In this document: piece after piece, positions 4,215 to 50,891 of the stretch
Layout: each line of letters opens with the position of its first letter
Numbering within the stretch: position 1 is the stretch's first letter
Assembly (NCBI RefSeq): GCF_020382885.2
Contig: NC_058502.1
Coordinates: 16,147,950 to 16,211,949 of the forward strand
Direction: 5' to 3'
Origin: Scatophagus argus
Lineage: Eukaryota; Chordata; Actinopteri; Scatophagidae
Length of the DNA: 64,000 nt
The notes under the pieces: model-generated
Database searches by the model: none
Told to the model about the DNA's origin: nothing
What the model saw: the letters and a program-made list of their open reading frames with translations, nothing else
Made by a program: the position numbers and the translations under genes

Positions 4215-23774
<19,560 letters not shown>

Positions 23775-24747: not shown

Positions 24748-24759
24748 GAAAACGAAACT
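24748..24759 (+). promoter_or_regulatory. eif2ak2: ISRE upstream of PKR copy A
   Basis: GAAAACGAAACT matches the interferon-stimulated response element consensus GAAANNGAAACT exactly, 155 bases upstream of the copy A start codon. A second GAAA-rich stretch (GAAAACGGAAAAC) lies at about 24819-24831. Such elements bind ISGF3 and IRFs, and PKR is a classic interferon-induced gene. Confidence 0.8.
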
Positions 24760-24913: not shown

Positions 24914-27900
24914 ATGGATAACACAAACTACGTCGCTCAACTAAACGAGTACGCGCAGAAAACCAGGTTGGAGCTGAAATACGAGGACGTTGGATGCGTT
25001 GGTCCCGATCACATTAAAACGTGAGTTGCACGAAATCTCTTGCATGAAGTGGAAGGATGTAGTATTTTGCGAAATCTGGGACTTAAATAAGCCAGGCCCT
25101 TACTCAGGGGGTGTATTTTCCCATCACAAGAACTAGGAAGTTGGTGTATCCCATGCTGCTTTAGGCCATCCATTGTACTGTACCCATGTATGTTTATCCA
25201 ACAGTACTTTTTGTGTTTTGTTTTTACTAATTAACACACTTTGTTTGCCGTTGCCTCTTATAAACCGCACATGCACTTGATATAACATTCAGTTGATGTT
25301 GTAATACCTTCATACTTGAGTTGAGATGTTATTTATTGTTTTCTCTATGCACTGAAAATAATAGGAAGATGTTGGGAGATGTGTGGGTTCTAGTTTAACA
25401 CCGCTTGAGACCTGGCAGTGATAATGCAGCCTCCATCACACCACATTTTGCATCATCTTGAACTCAGTCGGAGTTGTCTGATCTCTTCTTCAGATTTACC
25501 CTAAGAGCAGTTCTGAATGGTAAGGCCTATCCCAATGGTGTGGGGAAAAACAAGAAGGAAGCCCGACAGAGAGCAGCCGAAAACGTCCTGAAAAGCTTGT
25601 TGGGGGAACCTCCTGACTCTGTGAGATTATTATAAAGCTATTTGGACTGCATGTATTTGTATTTCTAAGGCTTCAATACTAATTAAAGGCACCCATCTTC
25701 TTTTTTGTCATCTTGACAGACAGAAACTAAAGTGGAAGCTCCCACTACACCAGTTCATGAGCCAGTTATTACTCAAACCAACTATATATGTTGGCTCAAT
25801 GAATATGGTCATAAGAACAGAGTTAATATAAAGGCTGTGGAGTCAACAAGACTGGGACCAAATAATGCCACGCAGTAAGTCTCCACATTGCACCCAAATT
25901 CTTAGCTGTGATTTAAAGATGCAGTAAACAGCAGTTTTTATGCTATTAGATGCTGTAGCTTTGTGGTTGGTGATAAGGAGTATCCAGCTGCCACTGGGAA
26001 AACAAAGAGGGAAGCCAAGGAGGAAGCAGCAAAGCTTGTGCATCATGAGATATGTGGAGGTAAAACGACAGTAAGTAGTAATACATACTATTTTCATTCA
26101 GGTCCTAGTAAAGTGCAGAGGGAACAAAGGAGCTGCCATGCTTGTATTTGTAATATTGTCAAGTCAAGTAGATATTTCAAATGTTTCCCGAACCAAACTG
26201 AAATCACCAAATCATAATAGAATCATACTTTTTTGTTTGAAAGCCTGGAGAGGAGAAATACGTCTCATCAAGTCCACTAGAGGAGTCAGACATCTGGTGA
26301 GCATAAGCCTTCTGAGTCTGTTTGGTTTGTGTCTGTTTATTAAAAGTTTTAATTAGCATCTGATTTGTCTTGGTGTTACAGTGGTAAGACAAGGAGCTTG
26401 AGTTTGACGCCTACAGACGAAGGTTTTATGGAGATAAATTTTGTAGGACACATCAACACCTACTGTCAGAGAACAAAGCTCTCTCATGATTATGTCTTTG
26501 AGAATAAATGCGGTCCTCCACATAGCCCTCAGTGAGTATGACTGACTGTAACCTTAACAGACACTACAGACAATGTCTGGAAACTCTTGATAGATATGAG
26601 AAGTTTTACTGCAATGATTTAAATGTTTGCTCCCTATCTACACAGGTTTTTCTACAAATTAGTGATCGGCAAAAAGCACTACCCTGTGGGTGAGGGTAGA
26701 AGCATAAAGGAAGCTAAACAAAATGCAGCTCAGCTGGCCTGGTCTGCCCTTGAAAAACAGACAGACTTCGACAAGAAGGTGTTCAGTATTTTCTGTTCTT
26801 TTGATATGATAAATTCTGTTTTTTTTAATATGCTACCAATGAGGTCCACTGTGTGTGTTTTCTCAGCCTTTTACTTAACCAGCAGTTTTCCTGCCCCACA
26901 GAATGATAGACAACTTTCTTTAGAATTCCTCATTATAAAACATGAGGGGCGTTTTTTGTAAGTCATTGAATGTGTGAAGACAGATGACCTGAGAGCTCCC
27001 CAAAATTAACTCCAAACATCTTGATTACACCTTGTTGATTGTCTCAAGCACACATTATGAACCCCTTCCCTGTCCATGTTAGCAGAGGGGACAAAGGCCA
27101 AACAAAACTTTCAAAGCTCAAATCAGATCAAATAATAGATGGTTTCTGCCATTTTAAGTAGTTGTTACCATTTCTCCAATAAGTATATTTGTTTTTTTCC
27201 TGTTATTTGATGAACATAACGTTATGCTCATGAGAATTACACAAATGCTGCACTGCATGCCAGAGAGCATCGGTGGCTGCAGAAGATGGTACAACTGAAC
27301 ACTTCCTCTGTGCTCTCAGTTTTCTTCCTTCTCAGCTATGTCGGATGATGTTGCTCCAGCCGGGGTGTCCACACCACCAAGCACAATGTAAGACACTGAC
27401 TGAGGAGCACAACAGATGGTGATGTTTGATCTTGACAGTATTCCACTAATGTGTCTTCTGTTCTCCAAGAGAGCCCCGTGAAGCAAAATCAAAAAGCGTT
27501 CCAAGGACTGCAAGCGACTCGGTTGTTTTCAGGAATTCATGTACTCCTTCCAAGAATCAGGTCTGCTGTTTCTTATGTAATTCTCTGATGCTGTCATGTG
27601 TGATCAGTTTGTAATGTTCAGTCTATTGCAGAAGTTATATTGAGCATCTTTAAGTCACCTTTTGGTTTTGTATGTATGCTTAACTACATTTGGCTATATT
27701 CCCTCACTTCTTATTCCAAAGATTCGCAGTCCTATTGGGAAGCCCAAAATAAGGTAAGCCATGTTTCAGAACCCAACGTAAAGCCGCAGTGCATGAACAT
27801 TTCACCAGATTTTATTGCGGATTATAATTTTTCTTGTCCTGTCAGAATTGCAGCAAATTTTCCAAATGCCTGCAAAAACAGCAAAGAGGTAAAGTAAGAA

Positions 27901-30283
27901 GATATTAATCATGCTATTTTATCTTGTCTAACATTTTAATCTCTACATCAGCATTTTTATTTTATTTGTTAAGGATGTAATCAATTTCAATGCCAAGAAT
28001 ACAGGAACAACAACAACAACACCAGTAAATTCAAGGTATGGAAAATGATAACGCTGAATTACAATATGAGGTGCATGATTTTTAGCACCACTGTGGCCCA
28101 AAGTTTAATATACACTCAGAGAAACATTTTTCCATTCAAAAAAATTCACATATAACATTCAACAATACTTGTGTTAAACTCAACAGGTTTACATCAGAGT
28201 TTGACTCCTTGCTGTGCCTCGGCAGCGGAGCCTTTGGTTACGTTTTCAAGGCGAAACAAAAACTGCTGGACAAATATTTTGCTGTAAAGATTGTTCGCTG
28301 CAAAGAGTAAGTAAAGTGTGTGTTATTTTGTTTACCTGTTTAAATGAGCGCTATATAGTAAATTAATTTAATCTGTTGAAATTTTGAATGATGGAGTTGT
28401 GTTCTCGTTCTGTTTTCAATCAGAAAAGCTCTACGGGAGGTGGGGGCATTATCAGACCTCCATCACTGCAATATTGTTCGGTACTACACATGTTGGTTGG
28501 AGGATTCAGGATACCAGTGGGGCAGTGCAGCTGGCAGTTCCAGCAGTTCACAGTAAATCCACTTATTAAAATCCTTACTGGACTTACTTTTCTGCTAAAA
28601 CAACCGGTGTGTCATGTCACAGTTTTTCTCTTCCTATTTTTCTAGGTCAACTGATGATTCGCTGCTGAAATACCTCTATATTCAGATGGAGCTGTGCAGC
28701 ACCAAAACACTTAGAGTGTGGATAGATGAGAAAAATATTCAGAATGTGAGGAAATCTCTGCGAGACTCAAAGAGGAGAGAAGAAAGTCTAACTATTATCA
28801 TCCAGATAGTCACTGGAGTCGAGTACATTCACTCCAAGATGCTCATCCACAGAGACCTGAAGGTGAGAGGAAGAAGTGAATCAAATCGTCCTTATGACAT
28901 CACATCTTTCATGAAGGTACATCTTGTTTCTGTCTTTCCCACGGTTAGCCTGCCAACATCATGTTTGGGCAAGATGGACAAGTGAAGATTGGAGACTTTG
29001 GTCTGGTCACTGCTGAGAATGATGACGGTGCTGAGAGCCTGATGGAGAGGACGGCGTACAAAGGAACCCCATCTTACATGGCTCCTGAGCAGGTGAGATG
29101 CTCTGTGCACACAGTGACTTGAGGCTCTTCTCTGTTAAAACTGTCGAGTTAATGTGCCTTTGTCCATATTGTGTGGTTGTTTTATGACAGAGGAGCAGAA
29201 ACGGGAGCACTTATGACCGAAAGGTGGATATATTTGCCTTGGGGCTGATATATTTTGAACTCCTTTGGAACCTCCAGACCAACCATGAGAGAAAAGCGGT
29301 GAGTTGGGCAGAGAAATTATGCTATGCAGTATATGACAGCTGTTCACAGTGCAGCAAACAAAGACTTACACACAAAGAACAAAGAAATTGAGACTTTGGT
29401 CTGGAATTGACACTTTTTGCACATGTACATATTTTTTGCAGCTCTGTTATGTATCAAGTAGAAACATTTAAAATCCAGACTCAGGTCTCAGTGTCTCCTT
29501 TGCTGACAGTTTTGAAAAGCACAACTCACTCCATGCTTACCTTTATTAAATGTTCACTAATAAATACTTTGTCACATAAGTTAAGCAAAGTGCCTTTTCA
29601 GACCTTTAGGCATGTCATAGCAGTAAAATATTATATATTATAGATATTATTGTTGTGACAAAACAGTGTCAAAAATGCCTTCTCTGAAAAAGGCCTACTG
29701 GACAGCTTATCACTTTGTGTCATGAGAGTTACATGTTCTTTCTGTGTTTTATCTTTACATGAATTCCAGATTTGGGATGAACTTAGAAACCAGAAACCTC
29801 CTCAAGGATTTTTGCACAATTTCCCCTATGAGGTACACCAGCTTTCTTTCTTTCACTTGACACATAAAACAGCATTTTCCATACGGTGGCCATCAGTAGT
29901 GATGGTCACCAGCAGGGGAGCAGCGAGGCTGAGGTAAAGGAGTTTGCATTGTTACTACAGTTCATCTGTGAGGGTTTAATGATGAAGAGACTAAACAGGG
30001 CCGCTGCTGAAGTGTCTGTGCCTGTTTGTGTGCGTTTAATCACAAGTTTGTGGAAAAGACTTGTGTTTGGTCACACAAGTAAAGTCAGCATTTGGGAAAT
30101 CCTGGCAGAATTTGTTGATATTGCTCTTTCTGTTGTTTTTTGTTGCAGAACCAAATTATAAAGTCAATGCTGTGTGTGAAGGCTGAAGACCGACCTGAAG
30201 CAAGTAAACTAAAGAAGGACTTGGAAGAGTACTCTAATATAGTTGCACAAAAATATATGCATCGCGAAAGTAAGACTGTTTGA
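24914..30283 (+). CDS. eif2ak2: PKR copy A: eIF2alpha kinase with three dsRBMs
   Basis: PKR binds viral dsRNA, dimerises and phosphorylates eIF2alpha to stop translation. I joined 19 exons: 24914-25020, 25494-25620, 25720-25874, 25959-26070, 26244-26296, 26382-26531, 26646-26778, 27320-27387, 27470-27560, 27722-27753, 27846-27888, 27974-28035, 28187-28306, 28424-28552, 28646-28862, 28949-29092, 29191-29298, 29770-29832, 30149-30283 (2049 nt, 682 residues). The dsRBMs lie near residues 4-75, 97-160 and 195-270; each has a GP-rich loop and a Lys/Ala-rich second helix such as [14 protein letters not shown]. The linker is Ser/Thr-rich (280-377). The kinase has G-loop GSGAFG (390-395), Lys412, HRDLKPAN (529-536), DFG (549-551), activation-loop Thr568 and Thr573 (equivalents of human T446/T451) and APEQ. 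dsRBMs and no Z-alpha domain make it PKR, not PKZ. Confidence 0.95.
25780..26070 (+). repeat. eif2ak2: dsRBM2 segment nearly identical to copy B
   Basis: Exon 3 (second part), the intron and exon 4 of copy A match 32849-33139 of copy B base for base in length (291 each) with about 14 differences by eye, roughly 95% identity. Flanking exons 2 and 5 are far more different. This looks like a gene-conversion tract. Confidence 0.8.
28553..29133 (+). repeat. eif2ak2: Kinase segment nearly identical to copy C
   Basis: Introns 14 and 15, exons 15 and 16 and the first 41 bases of intron 16 match 48622-49203 with about 12 substitutions and one single-base indel by eye, about 98% identity including intron sequence. 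Identity ends abruptly at 29133. Exons 13 and 17 differ strongly between the copies. Confidence 0.85.
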
Positions 30284-31774: not shown

Positions 31775-31786
31775 GAAATCGAAACT
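31775..31786 (+). promoter_or_regulatory. eif2ak2: ISRE upstream of PKR copy B
   Basis: GAAATCGAAACT is an exact match to GAAANNGAAACT, 97 bases before the copy B start codon. A reverse-orientation near match, AGTTTCACTTTT, lies at 31708-31719 (one mismatch). Two elements so close to the start suggest strong interferon induction. Confidence 0.8.
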
Positions 31787-31882: not shown

Positions 31883-34800
31883 ATGATGGATACTGGAAAC
31901 TACATAGCCAGACTGAACGAGTATGCACAGAGAAAGCGCTTCAGTTTGACGTACGAGGACGGCGGCTCTGATGGCCCTGACCATAACAGAATGTGAGTTT
32001 AAACGCTCTCTGGTAATTACAAAGCGGCTGCACATTATTTTATACAGTGTCAAGACAACACCCACAGAAAGTTAGTGATCAGATACATTTTAGGTGGTGT
32101 ATCCGAAACCCCTGAACGACCGTGATTTGACTGAGTTTAGTTTAATTTAGCTCACATACTTGTTGTCTTAAAGATTTTTCACATGACTTTAACCTCATCT
32201 GTTTTTCAGAGAAAGGTGGAAAGGAGGAGCATAAAGTGTACAAAGTCATCCTTGTTTAAAAACAAGTCTTTCCTGTTGCTGCAGATAGCATAACAAAAAA
32301 GTATAACAAGTAAGAGAATTCCTCCACAGATTCAGACAGAGGGCAGTCCTTAATGGTAAAGTCTATCCAGATGGGCTGGGCAAGACCAAGAGGGACGCCA
32401 AGCGTGAAGCAGCTAAAAACGCCCTGAATGATTTGGGGAAAGGACATCAGGACTCAGTTGACCCAGTAAGAATTTAGTTCCTCTTTGCTTAACTAGTGCA
32501 TGTTGAAATTATTTCAAAAGATGTTGCGTTCGTGATAATAGTCACTATTTTGGTGGGATCCCATTTTCAGTGAAAAAAATAAATAAAAATAATGATGGCA
32601 TCTCTGTAACACCACAGTGGGTCATTTGATGTGACATATTTTACTGTATATATTTATATTTTGCACTTAGCTATAGTGATTTCTTTAATATTTCAATTGT
32701 TTGTGTTAATTGTTCCCTAATTGTAGGTATTTACAAGAACAGGAATTGCATATGTCTCCTTTATGTATATTTGTTATTTTCTTGGCAGACAGAAAGTGCA
32801 GCAGAAGCTTCTGTTGTGCCAGTTCATCAGACAAGAACTGGGGACATTAACTATATATGCTGGCTCAATGAATATGGTCAGAAGAACAGAGTTACTATAA
32901 AGCCTGTGGAGTCAACAAGACCGGGACCAAATAATGTCACGCAGTAAGTCTCCACATTGCATCCAAATTCTTAGCTGTGATTCAAAGATGCAGGAAACAG
33001 AAGTTTTTATGCTATTAGATGCTGTAGCTTTGTGGTTGGTGATAAGGAGTATCCGGCTGCCACTGGGAAAACAAAGAGGGAAGCCAAGGAGGAAGCAGCA
33101 AAGCTTGTACATCATGAGATATGTGGAAGTAAAACAACAGAGGTGAGTAATACACACCGCTTTCTCCTGGATTAATCACAGGCCAGTCTTGTAAGAAGTA
33201 CTGTGGCATGACTTTTGTGTATCTAAAAATTGTAAAAAAAAAAAAAAAAATGCAAAAACTGTGTATCTAAAAACTGTACCTTTGTAACTGTCAAGAACGC
33301 AGATGGGTTTTCCAACTCTGCACCAATTCAAGAAAAGGCAGATTCAGTTTCTGATATCTGGTGAGTAAATCACAACACCAGTGGCTTGTTTAATTTTCAT
33401 GTATTCATCAGTGTGACTTGTTACTTTTTTTATGACAGTACTAAGACAGGATGCCTCAGCTTGAGCTCCAGCTTTACAGAGACGAATTACATCGGAATTG
33501 TCAACCACTATTGTCAGAAGACAAACAGCTCCCTTAAATTTATTGAAGAGAGATGTGGTCCACCTCACAACCGTCAGTGAGTATGAACTTGAATAGACAC
33601 AACAGACGCTAACTTTTCAGAGATGCCCAATCGGAAACAATACTAAACTGTTTTATACTGATCTAAACTTTTTCCTCTTTGTCAAAACCAAACAGATTTT
33701 TCTGCAAAGTAGTGATCAACAATAAGCAATACTCTGAGGGTGAGGGTAATACTGTCAAAGAAGCCAAACAAAATGCAGCTCAGCTGGCCTGGTCTGCTCT
33801 TCAGGAACAGTCAGACTGGGACAGCCAGGTATTTGACATTTTCTACTCCCTTTATAACATCTCACTCACTTCGCCAGTTTATTAGATACAGCTAGATAAA
33901 ACTAATGCAGCCTAATAACATTCCTGCCACAACTCTTACCTTCATTACTATTAATGTTCACTTATTGTTGAAACTAACTGAGAAGTGTCTCAGTTGTTTT
34001 CCTGCCCTCACTGATCAACAGCACCGTAAACTACAGTCACCAAAACAATCATAACATTTGATCAAACGTCTCTAAACCAGTTTTAACAAAAACTGAACAT
34101 TATAATCTTCATGAAAGTAGGATTTATGGCAGATTCTTCCTCAAGTGCTTTTATTTTGAAAGCCCTTTCTATAAAACATTCAAGCAAGGCATTTTTTTTC
34201 ATTGCATTGTGGTTAGTGATATTTCCTAATGCCATCAAGTGGCAGCAGATCTCAATCTCAGCTGCTTCTGAATAGTTTTGAATGAAATTGTTCCTCTGAG
34301 GTGAAATCTTACAATCAGTGATTATGTCTAACATGACCGTATGTTAAACAGCTTTTCTGTGCATTTCAGGTGTCTGTCAGATCAACAGCATCCAACGATG
34401 GTGCACGACCTACATTGTCAGTGCAGTCATCTACACAGTAAGGCACTTGTCATTTGTAGGAGAAGCAGGCTGTACTGACGAAGCTGTACTCACGTCTCTC
34501 ATTGTATTCCCTTAGGGAGTCCTATACATCACCGTCAAAAAGCACATCAGAGAGCACAAGTGACTCTATAATATTCGCCGATTCATCAAACCCCTCCAAG
34601 GCTCAGGTCTGTTCTCTCAGAATGGTAAAAAATCTTTAGTAGGTACAACACAATGTGCACTTATGAAGACTGAATAGCTTTAGTTTGGGTTCATATTTGT
34701 GGTTAAATAAGATGAAAGGTATGGCTGAGATGAAAAACGGTGATGGAAGAAGTATTCATATAATTAATAGTCTGACCCACATCAACTGTAGCTCCATCAG

Positions 34801-37800
34801 GTATCTCTGTTCTGGAAACACTGGTACAGTTATCTCTTTTTAAATTTATTGTATTTTAACTTTTGATATCAACTATGTTATTTTTAATTATTTATTTATT
34901 TATTTTCTTAGCTTTAGGCTTTTATTGTATGTGTTGTGTGTCGGTTGTTGTGTTTGTCTTGCGTATGGACCTTGAATCTGAAATAAAGATACATACATTC
35001 AGATTCTTTACTTAAATAAAATAAATATATAAAAAATACCACGTTACACAAATACTCAACTACAAGTAAGATTCTGGGGCTCTAAAGATGTTCTTAGATT
35101 TATGCTTGAACTTTGTCTTAAGATCATTTCTGTGGGCCTTGCATTTTCTTGCTGCAGATGTCTATGGGTGAGCTTAGTTTAACTACTTTATATACTGTCG
35201 GTTAGTTTAATCTACTGCAATGCATCATATTCAGTAAGAGCATCATATGTTTGTAACATCGCTGTTTCTATGAGCTCAGAAAGACGAGCCTGTTTTCAGC
35301 TTTGTGTGCATTTTACATCTAATCCAGGAGGGTCTTTAAATTGTTTCTTTAGCTGAACACATAAGACAATTTTCTCGGTTTATTACAAACATTCACAACA
35401 CATTTGGAAATACAGGTTTTTCACTGGACAGGAAAGGTTCGTTTACAACATTTGTCTTTCAGATGTGGTTGAAGTACATGATATTTACATGAAAAAGAAG
35501 TACAAAAAATGCTGCATTAACTTGTATGAAAAAGAAGTACAAGTACCTTGAAACTGTACTAAAGTGCAGTACTTGAGTAACTGTACTTCCTTAAATTCCA
35601 CCACTGGGGAAAAATGACGAGAAATAATACATATTTCACATTACTTTCCAACCATATGACACCGTACATAATGTTAGTAATGTGGAAAACTGTAAAAATT
35701 AACTATTTTTTGTGACTTGCAGATGTCCTCCTCGTTCGCTGCATCTAGTGATGATGCATCAACCAGGTTCTCAACTTCACTTAGTGACCATAGTACTAAA
35801 ATATTCTAGAGCTTAATGCTGAAAATGTTTTACTGATGCCTTTTGCTGTGTTCTCCTAGAGAGTCTTCTGCATCGTCACAAAGCATGCCGGTGGCTAAAA
35901 GTAGCTCAGGAATATGCAGTGCTTCGCCAAACTCTACAGAGGATCAGGTCTGCACTTTTTATCACAATCTTTAAATTTATGATGGTTAAAAAATCAGTTC
36001 TCTTTGTTCTGCTTCCTCTGTATTTTAGTTTTTATAAGAGCAAGGATGTTGTCTAGTCAAAGAAAGTAAAGTTAAAGTTGGAAATTTATGCAAATGTGAT
36101 ACCAGTATTTGTTTTGACGAAGAAGTAAACATGTCAAACATCCTCTATTCCTCACGAGGCAGAGCAGTGGGTTTAAATGCTTCACCTGCTGGTGTTGATG
36201 TGAGATGAAGACAACAGGACACTGAAAGAGAGAGAAAGCATGGACTGAAAAGCTCAGATAAAAATATAGGCAACACATAGTACGGTTATTATTTTGCTTT
36301 GATTAGGTGTGGTGATCTACTTCCTTGTACTGTAACTTGTCTTTTGTCTTCCTCTTGTAACTTCAGTATGTGAAGAGGTGTCTGTTGGACCAACAGGAAG
36401 GGGACTGGCAGTGTAGTTGCTATCTAACACAAGATCAACTGCTGTTGATCTATTATCTACTGCTCAGTCAGTCAATCCCAGTGTTACACATTTTCAGCTA
36501 TCACACTGCTCTAGCAAAGTTGATGTGCAGCAGTGCTTGTCTGACTAGGACCACCTGTTGGTGGAGATGTTTGCCTATTTTTGTGTGATTGTTTTGTTTG
36601 TGTGAATGGCATCTATAATTGCATAGCCTGTTCGGTTGCTCTCCTTTTTACAGACAGCTCCAATGTCACTACTAGTTACACTATATAGACACTATATAAA
36701 AGTATTGGCACATGTAACCATTACACCCCATTCTAAATATATAGACAGCAACATGGAGTTTGTCCCCCCTTTACAGCTATATCAACTTCCACTCTTCTGG
36801 TTTCCACAAGATTTTGTAGTGTTTCAGTGGGAATTTTTGCCCAATCATGTAGTAGAGCATTTGTGAGGTCAGGTACTGACGTTGGACCAAAACGGCTGGT
36901 TTGCAGTCTCAATTTAATTTCATTCCAAAGATGTTGGATGGGGTCAAGATCAGGGCTCTGTGTGGGCCAGTCAGGTTTTTCCACACCAAACCCATCCAGC
37001 CACGTCCTTTTGGAGCTTTGTTTTGTGCACTGGGGCACAGTCATGCTGGAACGGAAAAGGACTTTCCCCAAACTGTTGCCACAAAGTTGGAAGCATAGCA
37101 TTGTCCAAAATGTCTTGGTATGCTGAAACATTAAGATTTCCCTTCACTGGGAGTAAGGGGCTGAGCCCAAGCCCCGAGAAGCAGCTCCTGTCCAAATACT
37201 TTTGTCTATATAGCATAAGTTACTGCTGTAGCTAGCAGTCAATTTCTGACAGCTCATTTGCTGTCCCCACAACCCCTTGAGGCAAAAGTACATGCTACTG
37301 AGTTTACTCATTGTGCTCCTCCAGCCATGTAAACACAAGATCTGTCAAGTATAAACATTGCCATGTCATTTCCCTGCATTTCACTCTTCTTACACCTGTC
37401 CTAGCTGCTTTTAAAGAAAAAAAACAGGATTGTTACAGCTAATTTTTACTTTTATTCAAATACATCTACAAATATTTTTGCTGCCTCAAGAATTACAGAT
37501 ACAAATACTGGTCTCACTGCACATCCCCACTACTTGTTTGTTCATTGTATGTCCTAGTTCCTAAAGAGTATACAACACTAAGTGTTCAAAAATTTCAATT
37601 TATTTTAATCTTATATTCTCTAAGCATCCTATCAAAGACAAGAATATTGGAGGAAGACCAAATAACACCCAGACAAGGTATGAAAAAAATATTCAATTGT
37701 AATTAATGCAGTATGTTTATGTAGTACGGTTGTCATTTGTGCATTTCGCTCAAAGTAATTAATGTACTCTCAAGAAGAAATTTCTCTTTTCTTTTTTTTT

Positions 37801-41227: not shown

Positions 41228-42650
41228 TTATCATGAGGAGCTGTGATAAGTTATAAGAGTGCAAAGAAATTTGTCTCACCCGATGTCCGTCATTCAGTGG
41301 AACATGAAATCAAAATTTATTGTGATTTTTAAAAGTAACTTTCACATTAATGCATATCTGTTGAGCTTTTTACTGTTATTTTGTCAACAGACTTTTTATT
41401 CCATGCAGGAGCAGGTTAAATGCATTGTACTGGTAGTGTTACACAGACTTTTTTTTGTTTGTTTTTTTACTGAAAATGTTAATAATTGTTATGCAGGGTG
41501 GAACGTGCGGTAGTCAGGTGAAAATTGTTCAGTCTTGACCTGACATCTGATTCCTAGGCAGCAGGAAGCTTTTCTGTGGTTTTGTTTTGTTGTTTGTTTT
41601 GGGTGTGGGTTATATTCATGAATCGCTGAAAACATCATTGGGAAATACTGGAAATATTATTGATATTTCCGCTTTATTTCAGTTTTATTTTTTTTAATTA
41701 GAGGGTGGACAAATTCACAAAATTAGAATCTGATCAAATTCAATGTAAAACGTGGAATCATGTTTACAACAGTACGTGTTAATATTAGACTGGCTGCTGT
41801 ACCATCATGTTTTATCAGTGTAATTATTTAATTAAAGGCTTTTGCTTACCATTTCTTTTGACTATTTTCTGTGTTCGTCTAATCATGTACATTTTAAAAC
41901 TCATAAATCAGTGTTTAACGGTAAATAAAAATGTTAGTGTGATTATGTGAACTGACAAGGCTGCATAGTACAGCTGCAAGGAAGCAGAGAGCATACACTA
42001 AGAAGAGTATTTATGTGCCTGCAACATTACCTAACATGCAACCCATTAATGCTGTTCATGCTGGTGCTGAAACTGTCATCAAAACATGGTCTCTGTAGCG
42101 TTGATACTTCAGACATCAGCTTTCTAAAACAGTTATGGGTTATAATGTCAGGTTAAGTCCAACAGAAGTTATACCAGAGGTCAAACTCGCAGTTAAGTCC
42201 AGAAAGACAATGTTTGTCTGTCCTTAAGTTTGAAGGTTTTAGAGGGTTAGATTTCTAGATTTCAGTAGTTTAGTTTACTTAAACAGACATCAGGTAGTAG
42301 ACTGGACTACCTGCTGATTTTACGAATATGCTGTCTTTGTCATATCCATTGATCCAAACCACCAAACTCCAGTCCTACAGGTGGCGGAGCTTGTTTGCTA
42401 AGGAGCATCACTGAGAGAGAGAAGCATTTCCGTGAAGAAGCCTGGGAAACATGGATGTGGCGTATAGCTTCACTGGATAGCAAGTCATCCTGAGTTACAC
42501 ACTCCAGTACAGTAGGTGGCGATATGCACATTTCAAGTGGGTTGAAAGAGAAGAAAAGGAACAAGCTTTATTGGACAGAAGGGGAACATGTACGAAATTT
42601 AAATGACGATACATTCAGTAGCAAATGCACTCAGGGTTTTATGATTCGAG
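41228..42650 (+). other. Spacer between PKR copies B and C, with copy B 3' UTR
   Basis: Candidate copy B poly(A) signals are ATTAAA at 41831-41836 and AATAAA at 41924-41929. The rest shows no gene. I looked for an interferon element in the 700 bases before the copy C start and saw no GAAANNGAAACT on either strand. Confidence 0.5.
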
Positions 42651-45600
42651 ATGGAAAAAACAAATGACGCAGCTAAAAAAGATGTTGCATACAAAACACC
42701 CTCAGAGCTGAAGTTTGAGCAGACTGGCTCTCCCGGACCTGGACGCAAGAAAACGTGAGTTGCAACACTAAAGCTAGCTAGTTACGGTAGTGGCGCAGGT
42801 GTTAGCAGTTCGATCAATATTTCATCAAATAAAACTGGAAAGTACGTTTTTGCGGCTGATGATGATGGTGATGATGTGTTTTGATATGCTATAACGTAAT
42901 CGTAAGGCCGAAGTGTCAGACTGACAACACCGCCAGCGTTTTCCAAGTGGACAGTGAAATTATTTGTAAAGTTAGGTGGTGGGGGTTTGGCTGGGGGGGG
43001 TGAAACCAACTTGAGTGGTACCATTAAGACATGTGTATTATGGTGCACCAAGTGCAATTTAAATGTTTGTAAATACATACACACACACACACACACACAG
43101 TACTGTGCAAACATTTTAGGCAGGTGTGAAGAAATACTGTAAACTAAGAATGCTTTCAAAATGGAATTTTCATCTATTAAAATACAATAAATGAACAGAA
43201 GAGAAATCAAAAATCAAATCAATATTTGTATCTAATGTTTCATTAATGTTCAGTGATAAATGGTCAATTCTTTCCCAGTGGTGTGGGGAAGAGAACAGAT
43301 GGAGCCAAGCAGAGTGCAGCTAAAAATGCCCCAAGCAGTATGAAGGAGAACGAAAATCCAGAACGATTGGTAAGATTTTTATTCGTTTTTATTATGCTGA
43401 CTATTATACTGACTCTAATTCTGTTGTACCAAAACTTGTTGTTACTCATTCTGTAAGTCGCTTTGGATAAAAGCGTCTGCTAAATAAAGTGTAATGTAAT
43501 ACTGGTGTACGGAGCCCACGGAAGGCCAACAGTTTTTTGTTTGTTTGTTTGTTTTTTCTGAACAACTACTACTTCACCATATTTATTTGCCTTCAGAAAG
43601 TTAGTGACTGACCCTTTTACATTACTTAGCCAATAGCAGCTGTGAGAGTTTGATTAAGGTTCAGAGCACAGTTGTAGTCAACAGTAGTTTGTAGTTATAC
43701 CTGTGATGCTATGGGCATGGCTACAGTAATGTATTTGTGATCATGTCAGTTACAGTACACTACAGGAGTTCACGACTTCAGTAATTCCAGTACAAAATAT
43801 TAGAAACACAAGCATGACTACAGCCACATCACAGGGACAGAAGGCATGGTCATAGCTCTGCTAGTTATACATGTAGCTGCAGTGATATTTCTGCCTGAGC
43901 TCACCATAGCTAAAGATACGTACAATCAATCCATAGTACTATATTATAAAACAATGGAGCCTTTCCTTGTGGATCAGAAGGAATTCCAGAAGTTTTATGA
44001 GGCAGTGCAAAATACGGCGAGGAGCACAGCTTAATACAAGATAACGCAAAAAAATTCAGAAAATAAATTCCCACTGTGGTATAATTTCTATGTAAGTTGT
44101 GATGAGCTAAAGTTATAGTATGCACTGCAATATGATAGCATGAAGTAGTCATGTTATGTTTCCATTAAGAATGAAAGAAAAGCAAGATACAGCTGTATTA
44201 AAAGGATATAGCTGGTTAAGGGCCTGTAAGCTATAGAAGGTAAAAACTGTAATTATATAAACTGTTTTATGGTAGTGAAACACTGTCTATGGTAGCTATA
44301 CACTGTCAATGTAATCTCATTGTAACTGCTGTAAACCTGAAAAAGAGCATTTGTTGTAATCCGGCATAAAACAATTACAGTGGTATGAAAAAGTTTGGGC
44401 ACCCCTGATCATTTTCAGGATATTCCTTTATAAATCATTGGTTGTTCGGATCAGCAATTTCAGTTAAATATATCATATAGCAGACAAACACAGTGATATT
44501 TCAGAAGTGAAATGAAGTTTATAGGATTAACAGAAAGTGTGCAACAATTACTTAAACAACATTAGGCAGGTGCATAAATTTGGGCACCACAACAGAAAAA
44601 TGACATCAATATTTCGTAGATCCTCCTTTTGCAGAAATAACAGCCTCTAAACGCTTCCTATAGCTTCCAATGAGGGTCTGGAGTCTGGTTGAAGGTATTT
44701 TTGACCATTCTTCTTTACAAAAAATCTCCAGTTCAGTCAGGTTTCATGGTTTCCGAGCATGGACAGCCCGCTTTAAATCACACCACAGATTTTCAATAAT
44801 GTTCAGGTCTGGGGACTGAGATGGCCATTCCAGAACGTTGTAGTTGTTCCTCTGCATGAATGCCTTTGTAGAGTTTGAGCAGTGTTTGGGGTCGTTGTGT
44901 TGTTGAAGTATCCAGCCCCGGCGCAACTTCAACTTTGTCACTGATTCTTGAACATTGTTGGCAAGAATCTGCTGATACTGACTGGAATCCATGCGACCTT
45001 CAACTTTTTTGATTCAATTTTACATTCATCAGTCCACAGCACCTTATTCCAAAAGGAAGCTGGCTTGTCCAAATGTGCTTTAGCATACCTCAAGCGACTC
45101 TGTTTGTGGCATGTGCGTAGAAAAGGCTTCCGCCGCATTACTCTCCCATACAGCATCTCCTTGTGCAAAGTGCGCTGAATAGTTGAACGATGCACAGTGA
45201 CACCATCTGCAGCAAGATCATGTTGTAGGTCTTTGGAGCTGGTCTGTGGGTTGAGTTTGACCGTTCTCACCATTCCTCGCCTCTGCTTATCAGAGATTTT
45301 TCTTGGCCTGCCACTCCGGGCCTTAACTAGGACTGTGCCTGTGGTCTTCCATTTCCTCACTATGTTCCTCACAGTGGAAACTGACAGCTTAAATCTCTGA
45401 GCCAGCTTTTTGTATCCTTCCCCTAAACCATGATGTTGGACAATCTTTGTTTTCAGGTCATTTGAGAGTTGTTTTGAGGCTCCCATGTTGCCACTCCTCA
45501 GAGAAGATGCAAAAGGGAGAACAACTTGCTACTGGCCACCTGAAATACCCTTTCTCATGATCGGATTCACCTGTGTATGTAGGTCAAGGGTCAATGAGCT

Positions 45601-48600
45601 TACCAAACAAACTTTGTGTTCCAATAATTAGTGCTAAAGGTACTCAAATCAATAAAACAACAAGGGTGCCCAAATTTATGCACCTGCCTAATGTTGTTTA
45701 AGTAATTGTTGCACACTTTCTGTTAATCCTATAAACTTCATTTCACTTCTGAAATATCACTGTGTTTGTCTGCTATATGATATATTTAACTGAAATTGCT
45801 GATCCGAACAACCAATGATTTATAAAGGAAAATCCTGAAAATGATCAGGGGTGCCCAAACTTTTTCATACCACTGTATTTTTAAAAAAATAGCACAGGAA
45901 AAGGCTTGGAGATAATGGTGTCTGCTATCAGCCGAAACTTAGGCCAAAAACTGGAAGGCAGCCCAGAGAGGCACATGAAGCCTGCGTACTGAAGCTACTG
46001 GTGTAACCTGCACGCAGAAGTGCAGCCCAGAGAAGCACATGAAAAACATAACGGTGCACTCTGCACACAGAAGCCGTGCAAGACATACCGGTGTAACCTG
46101 TGCACAGAAGGGTAAAGACACCACCCAATTCAGGACAAAAAAAGAAACCTATAAAAGGATAAGACAATAAGGCGTGGAAAGGTCCAGACCTTAAGGTATA
46201 TAATGTGAAGCCACCAGTCATTCTAAGAGCGACCCTTCATGTGTACCTAGTGTGCTTTGTGAACGGTTTTTCCCTTTTTTGCCGGCATTAAAGTCTTTGC
46301 TGCTCAGAATCCTGTCTCCTGTTGATGATTCTACTGGACTTCGAGGGAAGATTTTCCAGAACAATTGGACACAGCTAAAACTTAGAAATTACTGTGGTGA
46401 GGCTTTGAGTCTTTGCTCTGAGCCTACACGACACCACCATGAACTTTTGGGAGCTCTGTACTGGTACATGTTTGATTCTGTAGTGATAATTGCAAGGCTG
46501 TTTACAGAGCACGATTAATTGGTTTGTTTATTATGACTGGTTGAAATGTACATTTCTTGTTTTGTTGACAGACAAAAACTACTGCAGAAAATCCTATTGC
46601 ACCATTTTACCAGAGAAGTAAACTCAACAACATCAGCTTGAGAAATGAAAACGTTCAGAAGAGCAGAGTGTTCAGAAATGCTTTGGCACCAGTTAACTCG
46701 GGACTCAATAATACCACTGCGTAAGTTACCACATTGCATCCACATTCATCTAGTTGTTTAGCAGCTATTTAATCAATAAACAAATTTCATATAATATGAT
46801 ACTCTGTAGATATGTGGTTGTTAATAAGGACTGTTCACCTGCCACTGATAGGACAAAGAATGATGCTATGGTGGGAGCAGCCAAGCCTGTAAATTATGAG
46901 AAATGTGCCAGAAAGGTTCCAGAGGTAAGTAGTGATGCATGTTTCTTTGTTTTTGTTTTAACTTGCTTAATTTTTCAAATCAAAAATTTGCAGCAGCTGT
47001 ATGCATGAGGCGCATGTTGTTAATGTTCTGATCCTTAATGATGAGCACTTAATTAAAAAATTATCTTAATTAAAAAAAACCTGGTCCTGTATCTTTTAAA
47101 AAGATCAGACAGCAAAATATTTCATATTATCATTTAATATTAAGCAGAATCATCTGCCTTTGATTTTGAAAGCCATTCCAATAAAAGGTGCAAACATGGC
47201 TAGTATTCTTTTAATTTTTTTTATTATTCTTACTTCTTTTTTGGAAACATGGGATTAAATGAAAATTACTTTGAAAGGTGATAAAATGTGGCAGTTAAAA
47301 ACATTTTAATCATGTGTGCTGTGTTTTAGCTGTCTTTGAACCCAGCTGTGTCTGATGATGGTGCGCCAGCCTTGATGTCCACACCACCACACCATGCACT
47401 GTGAGTCACTGGCTGCTGGTAGACTTCAGTGGTACAGCTTGATATGGGGCAATGTTTTACCAATGTCTCTCATTGTGTTTCCCAAGGGAGATCCTTGATG
47501 CAAAAAGTGTGGAAGTAACTACAAGTGATTTTGTGGTTTTCGTCAACTCATCAGACCTCCCCCCGGATCAGGTCTGTTATTGTCTCTGTGAGGCTAAATG
47601 TTTAGGATACTGAAAATAAAAATCCATATGTTACACTGTCTAGGCAGATTTTTAGTCAAGACCGCTACATGTTCAAGGCAGGGTCCAATAAAGGTTCATG
47701 ATGTCCCCATCGAAATTTGCTCAAGTCACAACCTAAAGTTTCAAGATTAACCCCTACTAGAATAACACACTGCAAGTCAAATATCAAGATGTCAGTAAAC
47801 TCCGGTCTTTCCTGTGAGTCCAGGGGGAATACTAGGAACCTGAGATGCCAGATGATGGCTGCATTTGATGTTGTACACTAATAAATCATGTTCTCCTCTG
47901 AATAGGTGATATTACAGTTTGTTTTTCCACGTGTCATTCAAACTGTATCAGATGTCCAAAATGCCCATCAAAGCAGTAACGAAGTATAACGAGCCTTTTA
48001 GATATTGGAATAATTTTATTGATTCAGTATTTTTTTTTTCCTGCAATCTAAGCTCTATATTATGATTCATATTCTTCATTTAGGACGTAACGATTTCTGA
48101 TGAATCCAGTAACGGAAGCAGTCCCAGTGACAACGCATCAATGCAATCAGAATTCTCAAGGTATGGAAAATTAAAACATTAAATTGCAGTCTTGGCATAT
48201 ATTTTCAGTTGGTCTGTTTAAAAAGTTTAAATACAGTAAAAATATCTTTCTTTTCATTTCAACAGGTTTAAATCAGACTTTCACTCAATAGAGCCCCTTG
48301 GCCAAGGAGGCTTTGGTCGAGTTTTCAAGGCGACAAAAAAACTGCTGGACAAGTGTTTTGCTGTGAAGATTGTTCGCTGTCGAAAGTGTGTCAAATACTT
48401 GTTTTTAATATGAATTTCATAATGAAATATATTACTTAGAGATGTAAGTTTCAACTTTGCCATTTTCTTGTCCTTCACATCAGAGGAGCTCTACGGGAGG
48501 TGAAGGCATTATCAGACCTTCATCACTGCAATATTGTTCGGTACTACACATGTTGGTTGGAGGAATCAGGATACAAATCGAACAGTGCAGCTAGCAGTTC

Positions 48601-49435
48601 CGGCAGTTCCAGCAGTTCACAGTAAATCCACTTATTAAAATCCTTACTGGACTTACTTTTCTGCTAAAACAACAGGTGTGTCATATCACAGTTTTTTCTC
48701 TTCCAATTTTTCTAGGTCAACTGATGATTCGCTGCTGAAATACCTCTATATTCAGATGGAGCTGTGCAGCACCAAAACACTTAGAGTGTGGATAGATGAG
48801 AAAAATATTCAGAATGTGAGGAAATCTCTGCGAGACTCAAAGAGGAGAGAAGAAAGTCTAACTATTATCATTCAGATAGTCACTGGAGTCGAGTACATTC
48901 ACTCCAAGATGCTCATCCACAGAGACCTGAAGGTGAGAGGAAGAAGTGAATCAAATCGTCCTTATGACATCACATCTTTCATGAAGCTACATCTTGTTTC
49001 TTTCTTTCCCACGGTTAGCCTGAAAACATCATGTTTGGGCAAGATGGACAAGTGAAGATCGGAGACTTTGGTCTGGTCACTGCTGAGAATGATGACGGTG
49101 CTGAGAGCCTGATGGAGAGGACGGCGTACAAAGGAACCCCATCTTACATGGCTCCTGAGCAGGTGAGATGCTCTGTGCACATAGTGACTTTAGGCTCTTC
49201 TCTATTCTCATACATTGATTCTGTTTTGGGTGTTTCACCCTTTTAACGGGATTCATTATTGGTTTATCCTCTTGGGGCTCCACTTTGTCAGGGATTGAAG
49301 TCTGGGATGCAGCAACATCCCATAGGCCCATTCATCCCTCCAGTATGCTGCATGCACGTTTCTCAGGTGCAGAAATGGAACCTCCAGAGTTTAAACAAAT
49401 AATGAAGGCTGTTAGAGGGCTTTGCACACAGAACT

Positions 49436-49470
<35 letters not shown>

Positions 49471-50891
49471 ATAAGATTGTTGTTGTTGAAATAGATACAG
49501 TGACTTTACGAGCAAAACTGATTATGTTTCCTATACAATAAGTTGAGGTATGTCTTTGGTTAATATTGTGTTCTTGCGTTACAACAGAAAAGCCAGAAGA
49601 TCTACAATCAAAAAGTTGACATATTTGCTTTGGGTCTGATATTCTTTGAGCTTTTTTGGAAGGCTTCCACTCAGCATGAATGGCAAGAAGTGAGTTTTTC
49701 AGTCATAATCCCAATTTAGTTTAGTATGTCATTATTAATACATAATAACCAACTTTATTGCTTATTTTTTTAAGTTCGTGTCAATTTTGAAATCATTTAA
49801 GCCCAACTGAGCTATCAGGTGGTTCATTCTCCTTTCTCTCCTTTATGACTGACTTTCAGGTTTGGAATAATGTCAGAAGCCAGAAATTTCCCCATGGATT
49901 TTCACACAGTTTTCTCCAAGAGGTATATCATTTTCTATGTTTTGCCAGTGTCCTTGCATTGTTTATTGCATTGTTATTGTTACTTGAGTTATTGAGTTAT
50001 TCAGGTATAACAGATTTGCACACACTCACATTTTGGTCACTGTGAATCCATGTTTACATGCAGCACTGCAGGAATCAGTGAGACAAAGCAGTGCTTTCCT
50101 TCACAGTCAGTAAACAGTTTGTTTACAAATGTGGGCATGACGTTTTTATATTCTTTTAGTGTCGGTGTTGTGTTTATGCTGGGGATACAACAGAAGTTTA
50201 AGTGCCACAAAGTGCTGCCCACTTCGTTCCAGTGCTCATGTTGACCAAGTGGGTTGTTCAATCAGAGAGGCTCACAATGGGCAGATATAGTTTCGGTGTC
50301 TGTTCTGTGTCAGACACAGACAGGACTGTGTTACATTACATACAAAGTCCAGCTATTTGTACTGATCTGTTCTTTCATCTAGCCTACTACTGTTACTTCC
50401 CTGTCTGAAGTCTTTATGAGTCATGCACATGCTTACTGCACACTGCAGACAAATCTGTGTTATCCAGGAGATAATACAGATGTTTTACTGGAGAAAGCCA
50501 GCCAGTGTTTCCTACAGGCTACTGGTTTACTGTTGATGTTCACCAACAGGACAGGAAGGAGGTCGGTGTGGTGGTATTATTACAGTTGTCCATATGTAAG
50601 CCTCAAAGGATGAGCAAAAACAAGCCTGTTGCTTTCAAATGTGAAAAATATCACACCTCAGATGATGGTATTTTTGGAAAATAGCAATGTGCATTTGTTG
50701 GTTGTGCAAGTGAGCAATAATACAGCGTGGTCGAATTTCCTTATTTTATTTTATTTTTTATGTTGTAGTACACCTTAATAAAGCCAATGCTGTGTGAGGA
50801 ACCGGAAGAACGACCCGAAGCAAGAAAGCTCAAGAAAGACTTCGGAGTTTGCAGTCAGGAAAAAGTGCGACACGCCAGCCGGTCATACTAA
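42651..50891 (+). CDS. eif2ak2: PKR copy C: intact kinase, eroded dsRNA-binding half
   Basis: A frame-consistent model has 14 exons: 42651-42754, 43279-43369, 46572-46720, 46810-46924, 47330-47400, 47487-47571, 48084-48160, 48266-48385, 48484-48621, 48716-48932, 49019-49162, 49588-49689, 49860-49922, 50769-50891 (1599 nt, 532 residues). The kinase is complete: GQGGFG (243-248), Lys265, HRDLKPEN ending at 392, DFG (Asp405), ERTAYKGT and APEQ. The N-terminus is not. The first helix LNEYAQ of dsRBM1 is replaced, its GPxH is now GPGR, and exon 2 must use an internal acceptor. dsRBM2 has lost WLNEYG and its Lys/Ala helix (now [14 protein letters not shown]). The exons of dsRBM3 are absent. It probably cannot sense dsRNA in the usual way. 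It could be a constitutive or partner-activated kinase, a regulator of copies A and B, or a gene on its way to pseudogene. Confidence 0.82.
42851..42879. repeat. (GAT)n microsatellite
   Basis: A short GAT/GGT run in copy C intron 1. Confidence 0.75.
43076..43100. repeat. (AC)n microsatellite
   Basis: A pure AC run in copy C intron 1. Confidence 0.9.
43237..43278 (+). pseudogene. eif2ak2: Disabled 5' part of copy C exon 2
   Basis: This aligns with the start of exon 2 of copies A and B, where TTT ACC CTA AGA GCA GTT encodes the first strands of dsRBM1. Here it reads TTT CAT TAA TGT TCA GTG, with an in-frame stop at 43244-43246, and the AG that should precede it is ATG. The next 90 bases (43279-43369) remain open and follow a good acceptor, CTTTCCCAG|T. 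Confidence 0.8.
43452..43500 (+). repeat. SINE-type conserved tail
   Basis: GTAAGTCGCTTTGGATAAAA and the AGCGTCTGCTAAAT that follows form a sequence found in very many copies in fish genomes. It resembles the 3' part of V-SINE-type repeats. The upstream head of a SINE is not obvious here. Confidence 0.55.
44378..45875 (-). mobile_element. Tc1/mariner transposon, nearly full length
   Basis: The element is 1498 bases long and flanked by TA dinucleotides (44376-44377 and 45876-45877). Terminal inverted repeats of about 210 bases start CAGTGGTATGAAAAAGTTTG and match closely at the two ends. The inner part of each repeat again carries TTTGGGCACC, giving an IR/DR-type layout. It sits in copy C intron 2 and encodes a broken transposase on the minus strand. 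The close match of the two ends suggests a fairly recent insertion. Confidence 0.93.
44744..45486 (-). pseudogene. Tc1 transposase, internally deleted and frameshifted
   Basis: The N-terminal part ([20 protein letters not shown] onward) has the paired-like helix-turn-helix, the GRPRK hook and the first catalytic Asp in LWTDECK. After that the frame breaks near 44990 and about 60 catalytic-core residues are missing. The second frame continues with NDPKHCSNS, where the usual catalytic Asp before NDPKH is His, and ends with [14 protein letters not shown], which keeps the final Glu. It cannot be active. Confidence 0.88.
45917..46370 (+). mobile_element. Possible solo LTR
   Basis: The segment begins TGTCTGCTATCAG and contains two imperfect copies of a GCAGCCCAGAG-AGCACATGAA unit. 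It also has a TATA-like TATAAAAGG (46151-46159) and a GC-poor stretch, then an ATTAAA (about 46288) followed by TCTTTGCTGCTCAG. This order resembles U3-R-U5 of a fish retroviral LTR. I found no gag or pol and no exact boundaries. It adjoins the Tc1 element in copy C intron 2. Confidence 0.35.
46925..47329 (+). other. eif2ak2: Copy C interval where dsRBM3 exons should be
   Basis: In copies A and B, exons 5-7 (the dsRBM3 exon pair and the short spacer exon) lie between the counterparts of 46924 and 47330. Here only about 405 AT-rich bases remain and none resembles those exons on inspection. Exon 4 (phase 0 end) and exon 8 (phase 0 start) join in frame, so the loss is frame-neutral. Confidence 0.75.
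48622..49203 (+). repeat. eif2ak2: Kinase segment nearly identical to copy A
   Basis: Partner of 28553-29133, about 98% identical including intron sequence. Exon 15 has a single base difference between the copies. In exon 16 the differences change PAN (copy A) to PEN (copy C) in the catalytic loop. Confidence 0.85.
49438..49469. repeat. (AT)n microsatellite
   Basis: A pure AT run in copy C intron 16, just past the end of the high-identity tract. Confidence 0.9.

Follow-up and report, generated by a model that had tools for sequence, protein, structure and literature searches.

The window analyzed here is a stretch of 64,000 nucleotides from Scatophagus argus (the scat; contig NC_058502.1, positions 16,147,950 to 16,211,949 of the forward strand). 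It holds three genes of the PKR type, termed copies A, B and C, which follow one another head after tail on the plus strand. The third, copy C, has lost its sensor for double-stranded RNA (dsRNA), retains a complete kinase, is placed by trees in an old paralog group of percomorph fishes (here called C-type) rather than standing as a recent stray, and shares with copy A a tract of recent gene conversion that covers its catalytic exons. We give roughly an even chance to the reading that copy C works as an eIF2alpha-family kinase without a dsRNA switch of its own, with a core converted from copy A and with activation through the kinase dimer interface.

The first-pass annotation of this DNA had described copy C as keeping its kinase landmarks in one open frame of 532 residues, and the 14-exon gene model bears this out (Table 1). 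The model runs from the ATG at 42651 to the TAA at 50889–50891 with GT/AG at all junctions and no inner stop, and the glycine loop, Lys265, the alpha-C Glu, HRDLKPEN, DFG, both activation-loop threonines and APEQ are all present. An Arg and an Asp of the dimer contact are present as well (R262/D266-type in human numbering). The Pfam match to Pkinase lies far beyond chance (5e-46), and only kinase-type families match the protein. The top database match is the Scatophagus protein P0001 (518 amino acids), which is obtained letter for letter when exon d2b starts at 46852 and which also begins d1b at 43279. A weak donor after exon kI was considered as a defect and dismissed, its score being 2.0 as against 2.8 in copy A on a rough matrix.

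Array position, exon plan and likeness to copies A and B speak for copy C being PKR: the gene lies in the eif2ak2 array, its domain of the eIF2alpha-kinase type has the PKR exon plan, and its likeness to copy A is 0.99 in the tract and 0.66 in the flank; a functional-looking dsRNA-binding motif (dsRBM) is absent. Exons kI, kV and kVI measure 120, 102 and 63 bp, the same lengths as given for zebrafish PKR and PKZ (PMC2291453). In structure comparison the nearest folds are the PERK, PKR and GCN2 kinases, and by sequence against solved structures the PERK kinase (191 bits) and human PKR (185 bits) are not separated by these scores alone; the slightly higher PERK score may explain the PERK-type name of the database protein. 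PERK itself (EIF2AK3) was rejected, as the protein has no signal or transmembrane segment, luminal sensor part or luminal Pfam domain (peak 19-residue hydropathy is 1.35, inside the kinase, and 0.83 in residues 1–212); the trees took in no PERK sequence. PKZ was likewise rejected, since only kinase-type Pfam families match the protein and no Z-alpha domain occurs in the plus frames upstream of the kinase. Directly following HRDLKP, copy C has Glu and copy A has Ala, and the other 29 C-type rows have Ala (21), Ser (3), Thr (2), Gly (1) or Glu (2). Because copy A and most C-type rows have Ala there, the canonical-looking PEN of copy C is probably a later change and not a retained ancestral state.

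The sensor part presents a different picture. No dsrm domain is found by Pfam at E ≤ 1 in either the 532- or the 518-residue protein of copy C, and the same search finds three dsrm stretches in copy B and in the N-terminal part of copy A. For the plus strand of 41229–48260, the 7 kb upstream of the kinase, we rejected a different N-terminus that would carry good dsRBMs, as no Pfam family matched at E ≤ 0.1 in its three frames and the same frame search on the split exons of copy A, run as a positive control, found dsrm in two of three frames. The open frame of d1b requires the acceptor at 43279; an AG that lies closer to the position expected from homology (exon start 43254) leads out of frame to a stop at codon 58. 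Since 43279 is used instead of the homologous start, the beta1–beta2 codons of dsRBM1 are skipped. When these out-of-frame codons are bridged with XX, the dsrm match reaches 20.7 bits, below the cut-off of 23, and the decay of dsRBM1 appears partial in the DNA and complete in the predicted protein. The dsRBM2 sequence is open but unrecognizable. In both motifs the lysines, which presumably bind RNA, are damaged (NKKEAR in copy A to RTDGAK in copy C; KREAK to KNDAM). An AlphaFold2 model of P0001 with 65 homologs places all of residues 1–212 below 50 in predicted local distance difference test (pLDDT) and most kinase blocks at 80–98, the insert and activation loops falling below this otherwise high confidence. 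With the same 65 rows the C-type protein of Enoplosus shows dsRBM1 at pLDDT 81–98 and no confident second motif. The earlier claim that dsRBM1 and dsRBM2 had lost their signatures, leaving no credible sensor, thus stands. The accompanying claim that dsRBM3 is gone holds for copy C and fails as a local loss, at most two dsRBMs being found in 19 of 19 scanned members of the C-type group. Loss of dsRBM3 is old, and loss of dsRBM1 and dsRBM2 local to this lineage, with a parallel in Mastacembelus.

Three percomorph groups emerge in trees of the kinase exons outside the tract. Copy C falls in the C-type group, which has Shimodaira–Hasegawa-like approximate likelihood ratio test (SH-aLRT) support of 92 (10 rows, 119-row tree) and 96 (30 rows, quick 101-row tree), and 95/90 for the 10 rows in a 56-row tree; in a 31-row tree its support is 89/89, and a topology that unites scat A and C is disfavored only at p 0.049. 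The 119-row tree comprises those of 146 kinase domains that carry the listed species names plus the three window copies, P0001 (equal to copy C) being omitted; the other sets were chosen rows (56; 101, P0233 omitted; 35 A and 14 C in the nearest-A comparison below; 31). The protein searches yielded the best 120 of 3405, 4427 and 6595 matches, and group counts therefore describe a sample. C-type rows include Channa, Mastacembelus, Oreochromis, Amphiprion, Aulostomus, notothenioids, groupers, croakers, butterflyfishes and two Scomber, of which P0091 falls outside the clade in the 119- and 56-row trees and inside it in the 101-row tree. The VAIK Lys, alpha-C Glu, HRD, Asn, DFG and T451-type Thr are kept in all 30 C-type rows and the T446-type Thr in 23. 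The seven exceptions are notothenioid proteins (P0092, P0167, P0188, P0194, P0213, P0214 and P0226), which have E, L, S or a gap in place of the T446-type Thr and keep T451.

Among the 19 single-kinase C-type members scanned for dsrm (of 30 rows; the other 11 are not in the count), 13 score at or above the cut-off (25–66 bits), none with more than two stretches, and six have none. A full-length N-terminus is found in only two of these six, scat copy C and P0143 of Mastacembelus armatus, a fish of another order. The other four (P0105, P0086, P0167 and P0201) may be truncated models, and we do not treat them as established cases of sensor loss, because P0233, a Scatophagus argus database protein of 349 residues, is kinase-only although copy B has three dsRBMs. 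P0233 starts at an inner exon of copy B (35723) and equals the end of that copy apart from one added residue; the model is truncated, or else copy B has a second, alternative start. Five further database proteins of about 790–990 residues, from Chelmon, groupers, Xyrichtys and Odontesthes (P0121, P0122, P0002, P0123 and P0125), contain two PKR kinase domains, being either models that run on from one gene into the next or genuine fusions of neighboring copies.

Over 574 columns of the tract, starting at A 28546, copies A and C differ at 10 positions and by one gap, about 98% identity with introns included, and six of the differences fall in 206 intron columns. The tract holds the hinge, HRDLKPEN, DFG, both threonines and APEQ. 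Its 3′ edge is sharp and its 5′ edge less so, identity being 91% (88/97) in the part of kII before the tract and 77.5% (93/120) in kI; the kI–kII intron is far less alike than its flanking exons. In a permutation test a segment as long as the one observed arose in none of 2000 runs. This tract is a recent gene conversion. Selective convergence was rejected as its source because the introns are almost as alike as the exons. In the tract tree scat A and C pair with support 100/99 and fall within the A-type genes, joined at 86/86 by Chelmon A and two further C-type rows, and copy A is probably, though not certainly, the donor. At an assumed 2–4e-9 substitutions per site per year, the conversion is about 3.6–7.3 million years old. 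A second gene-conversion tract links copies A and B at 25711–26088 and 32780–33157, where similarity over the dsRBM2 exons and their intervening intron is 88% overall, with a core of 94–98% in windows from 25781 to 26030, intron included, and far less similar flanks; given both tracts, the array exchanges modules more widely.

The A/C tract changes how the intact kinase is to be read. The first-pass annotation had argued that a neutral pseudogene should have lost the kinase as well, an argument now weakened, for HRDLKPEN, DFG, both threonines and APEQ lie in A-like sequence. Landmarks in the tract were supplied or refreshed by conversion, and their intactness is therefore no test of neutrality. 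Independent evidence comes instead from the C-lobe exons beyond the tract and from conservation of the paralog group.

The same catalytic exons look to have been converted in several other fishes. When C-type genes of 14 species or groups were compared with 35 A-type genes, the nearest A was the species' own in 6 of 14 for the tract, 2 of 14 for the N-lobe flank and 0 of 14 for the C-lobe flank. The six are scat, Enoplosus, Chelmon, Chaetodon (a tie), Plectropomus and Mastacembelus; own A ranks second in Larimichthys and Pagrus, and Epinephelus, Scomber, Etheostoma, Amphiprion, notothenioids and Channa give no clear sign (rank 6 to 29). The binomial chance of at least six own-A tops is 1.3e-6, with relatedness ignored and the tie counted; the 14 comparisons are not all independent, ties count as top, and for Chaetodon, Etheostoma and notothenioids the A and the C compared belong to different species. 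The tract tree also joins C to A of its own species or genus in Enoplosus (97/91), Plectropomus (81/89) and Chaetodon (92/84), and forcing nine C-type rows together is rejected (p 4e-5). An assembly error could produce such a tract in this window but is unlikely as a general cause, since the same pattern appears in Enoplosus, Plectropomus and Mastacembelus.

As to how copy C might work, we infer that it is expressed and active, is activated in trans and brings a benefit. Copy C itself would receive no RNA input. Its kinase would pair through the PKR-type back-to-back N-lobe interface with dsRNA-bound copy A or B and be phosphorylated in trans, or alternatively pair with itself when abundant. 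Activated copy C would then phosphorylate eIF2alpha and amplify the sensing copies, and its kinase surface outside the tract, which differs from that of copy A, may meet viral inhibitors differently. A wider proposal is tentative and, on balance, doubtful: percomorphs may retain a PKR with little or no sensor that serves the sensing copies as catalytic partner, with gene conversion from a sensing copy repeatedly renewing its catalytic exons and with the dimer-contact N-lobe and the helix F–I surface left to diverge. Substrate and viral pseudosubstrates dock on the helix F–I surface, and the substrate-docking helix lies in these exons. If the proposal is true, the array would combine a single upstream dsRNA input and a common catalytic engine with several surfaces that face inhibitors.

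Through most of its history the protein of copy C was probably selected for its kinase and for an open frame, and not for the dsRBM sequence. A three-gene codon model (A, B and C; three sequences, five partitions, uncorrected) gives for copy C a ratio of nonsynonymous to synonymous rates (dN/dS, omega) of 0.455 in all kinase exons outside the tract (twice the log-likelihood difference from omega 1, 2ΔlnL, 4.3). The contrast between kinase and N-terminal exons proposed in the first-pass annotation is found for the C-lobe exons outside the tract, at 0.19 (2ΔlnL 13.3) as against 0.79 in the dsRBM exons (2ΔlnL 0.6, not different from 1); it does not extend to the N-lobe exons. In 1000 runs of a neutral simulation (substitutions only, started from copy C itself), the 231 N-terminal codons stayed stop-free in 0.5% at 0.466 changes per site, the divergence of the dsRBM exons.

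Several observations weigh against selection on, and use of, copy C. Omega in the N-lobe exons is 2.25 (2ΔlnL 0.9, not different from 1), the same model returns 1.41 for the C-lobe of the intact copy B, which marks the estimates as noisy, and each value for copy C averages over a long branch, much of which predates the loss of the sensor. The chance of staying stop-free by neutrality rises to 15% at 0.1 changes per site and to 37% at 0.05, and the open frames are therefore silent on the time since conversion. Perfect ISRE-like (interferon-stimulated response element) sites GAAANNGAAACT precede copies A and B, and within 600 bp upstream of copy C there is none, only one-mismatch versions and a site like a gamma-interferon activation site (GAS). 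This difference is a hint, the motif GAAANNGAAA occurring nine times in the whole window against 4.6 expected, a count reached by 7 of 100 shuffles. Transcription of copy C has only an indirect hint, in the isoform name of the database protein. Kinase-dead PKZ, unlike kinase-dead PKR, had no effect on reporter expression in mammalian cells (work cited in PMC2291453), and partnership between paralogs is therefore not to be assumed.

These points also sustain an explanation that we consider unlikely yet take seriously, that of a gene in decay, in which copy C lost both sensor and use and owes its intact look to repeated conversion by copy A and to the short time available for stops. The 98% identity of the core to copy A with introns included, omega near 1 in the dsRBM exons and not different from 1 in the N-lobe exons, the homologous d1b acceptor region lying out of frame, the missing perfect ISRE-like site and the stop-free chance at 0.05 changes per site would all be expected of it. 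Decay accounts poorly for an omega of 0.19 in C-lobe exons that conversion did not reach, for N-terminal codons still open at high divergence, for catalytic residues kept throughout the C-type rows, and for a second full-length, sensor-less case, Mastacembelus P0143, whose kinase is intact too.

Quite improbable is a role as decoy or dampener, with copy C binding viral pseudosubstrates or inhibitors, or pairing unproductively with copies A and B, at little eIF2alpha phosphorylation. Retention of the kinase fold after loss of the sensor and a core kept A-like by conversion would suit it, and a ranavirus eIF2alpha-like inhibitor of PKR has been reported (PMC3068933), but a pure decoy could drop the catalytic residues that all 30 C-type rows keep, and the helix F–I exons are not homogenized with copy A. 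That the divergent N-terminus is a new sensor for another ligand or partner seems least probable: about 230 codons stayed open and PKZ shows that sensors are swapped among fish PKR relatives (PMC7137213), yet no non-kinase Pfam domain occurs in the protein or in 7 kb of plus frames, no structure is predicted with confidence and omega is near 1 in the old dsRBM exons.

Other features of the window lie outside the coding exons of copy C. The Tc1-type transposon in its intron has matching inverted ends and a 196-codon piece with transposase HTH domains, and a weak DDE_3 match on the minus strand of a copy B intron (36736–37143) is probably a further Tc1-like remnant. On the 5′ side of the array lie a G-patch gene (plus strand, 22103–22495) and a weak, sub-threshold match to HEATR5 (minus strand, 8854–9318), fitting a conserved eif2ak2 neighborhood, the two being neighbors of EIF2AK2 in man.

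Table 1. Features of the PKR array in the window, in window coordinates.
Feature	Position	Strand	Basis
Copy A, intact 19-exon PKR, three dsRBMs, 685 aa	24914..30283	+	gene model and Pfam
Copy B, intact 19-exon PKR, three dsRBMs, 688 aa	31883..41227	+	gene model and Pfam
Copy C, PKR-family gene of 532 aa in 14 coding exons	42651..50891	+	gene model; one alternative acceptor gives P0001
Exon d1a, decayed first half of dsRBM1	42651..42754	+	gene model, Pfam, codon model
Exon d1b, second half of dsRBM1, shifted acceptor; homologous codons from 43254 out of frame	43279..43369	+	gene model; same junction in P0001
Exon d2a, decayed first half of dsRBM2	46572..46720	+	gene model
Exon d2b, decayed second half of dsRBM2; start 46852 in P0001 isoform	46810..46924	+	gene model
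Three linker exons (47330–47400, 47487–47571, 48084–48160); no dsRBM3	47330..48160	+	gene model, Pfam frame search
Exon kI, dimer-contact Arg/Asp, glycine loop, Lys265; 120 bp	48266..48385	+	gene model
Exon kII, alpha-C Glu and start of kinase insert	48484..48621	+	gene model
Exon kIII, hinge to HRDLK; within tract	48716..48932	+	gene model, A/C alignment
Exon kIV, PEN, DFG, activation loop, APEQ; within tract	49019..49162	+	gene model, A/C alignment
Exons kV (49588–49689, 102 bp), kVI (49860–49922, 63 bp) and kVII (50769–50891), helices F to I; outside tract	49588..50891	+	
Gene-conversion tract of copy C, approximate limits	48602..49189	+	alignment to copy A
Tract counterpart in copy A	28533..29119, about	+	likely donor
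Tc1-type transposon in copy C intron between d1b and d2a	44376..45877	-	transposase Pfam matches; inverted ends read
Perfect ISRE-like GAAAACGAAACT, 166 bp before ATG of copy A	24748..24759	+	
Perfect ISRE-like GAAATCGAAACT, 108 bp before ATG of copy B	31775..31786	+	
GAS-like TTCCGTGAA upstream of copy C	42428..42436	.	consensus match only

The first-pass annotation knew of no such copy. In a 2008 study, however, PKR3 of Tetraodon nigroviridis is the third gene of a head-to-tail PKR array and has a PKR-type kinase with only a partial dsRNA-binding domain (dsRBD); it is expressed, having been cloned from fish treated with polyinosinic:polycytidylic acid, and unlike copy C it is close to PKR2 of its own species, at 88.5% in the kinase (PMC2291453). 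A search of open-access papers, with most subscription papers outside its scope, brought up none about C-type PKR or about conversion among the members of PKR arrays, and within it a percomorph group of sensor-poor PKRs with recurrent conversion of catalytic exons was not seen. PKR is among the main points at which vertebrates and viruses are in conflict, and it is regarded as a kinase to which a dsRNA sensor is firmly joined; a line of paralogs that sheds the sensor and exchanges catalytic exons would offer a natural test of the antiviral value of the kinase alone. In PKR arrays, conversion tracts need to be removed before intact kinase motifs, trees of whole kinases or tests of selection are relied on, since all three can otherwise mislead.

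Within the C-type group a close counterpart is Mastacembelus P0143 ('eIF2AK3-like isoform X2', 518 aa), which has a C-type kinase by tree, a full N-terminus without dsrm, an intact kinase and a core closest to A of its own species (0.97), but whose N-terminus has decayed differently. Enoplosus P0023, Epinephelus P0012, Plectropomus P0015 and Larimichthys P0085 share the kinase clade and the absence of a third dsRBM and differ from copy C in keeping one or two dsrm stretches (50–66 bits per protein). PKZ of carp and salmonids likewise combines a PKR-type kinase with the absence of dsRBDs (PMC7137213), but has the Z-alpha domains that neither the protein of copy C nor the plus frames upstream of its kinase contain. 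Mammalian IFIT1/IFIT1B belong to another gene family, and in the excerpts of that study loss of a sensor part is not their subject; what they share with the PKR array is recurrent conversion of one part of tandem antiviral paralogs while the rest diverges (PMC4887208).

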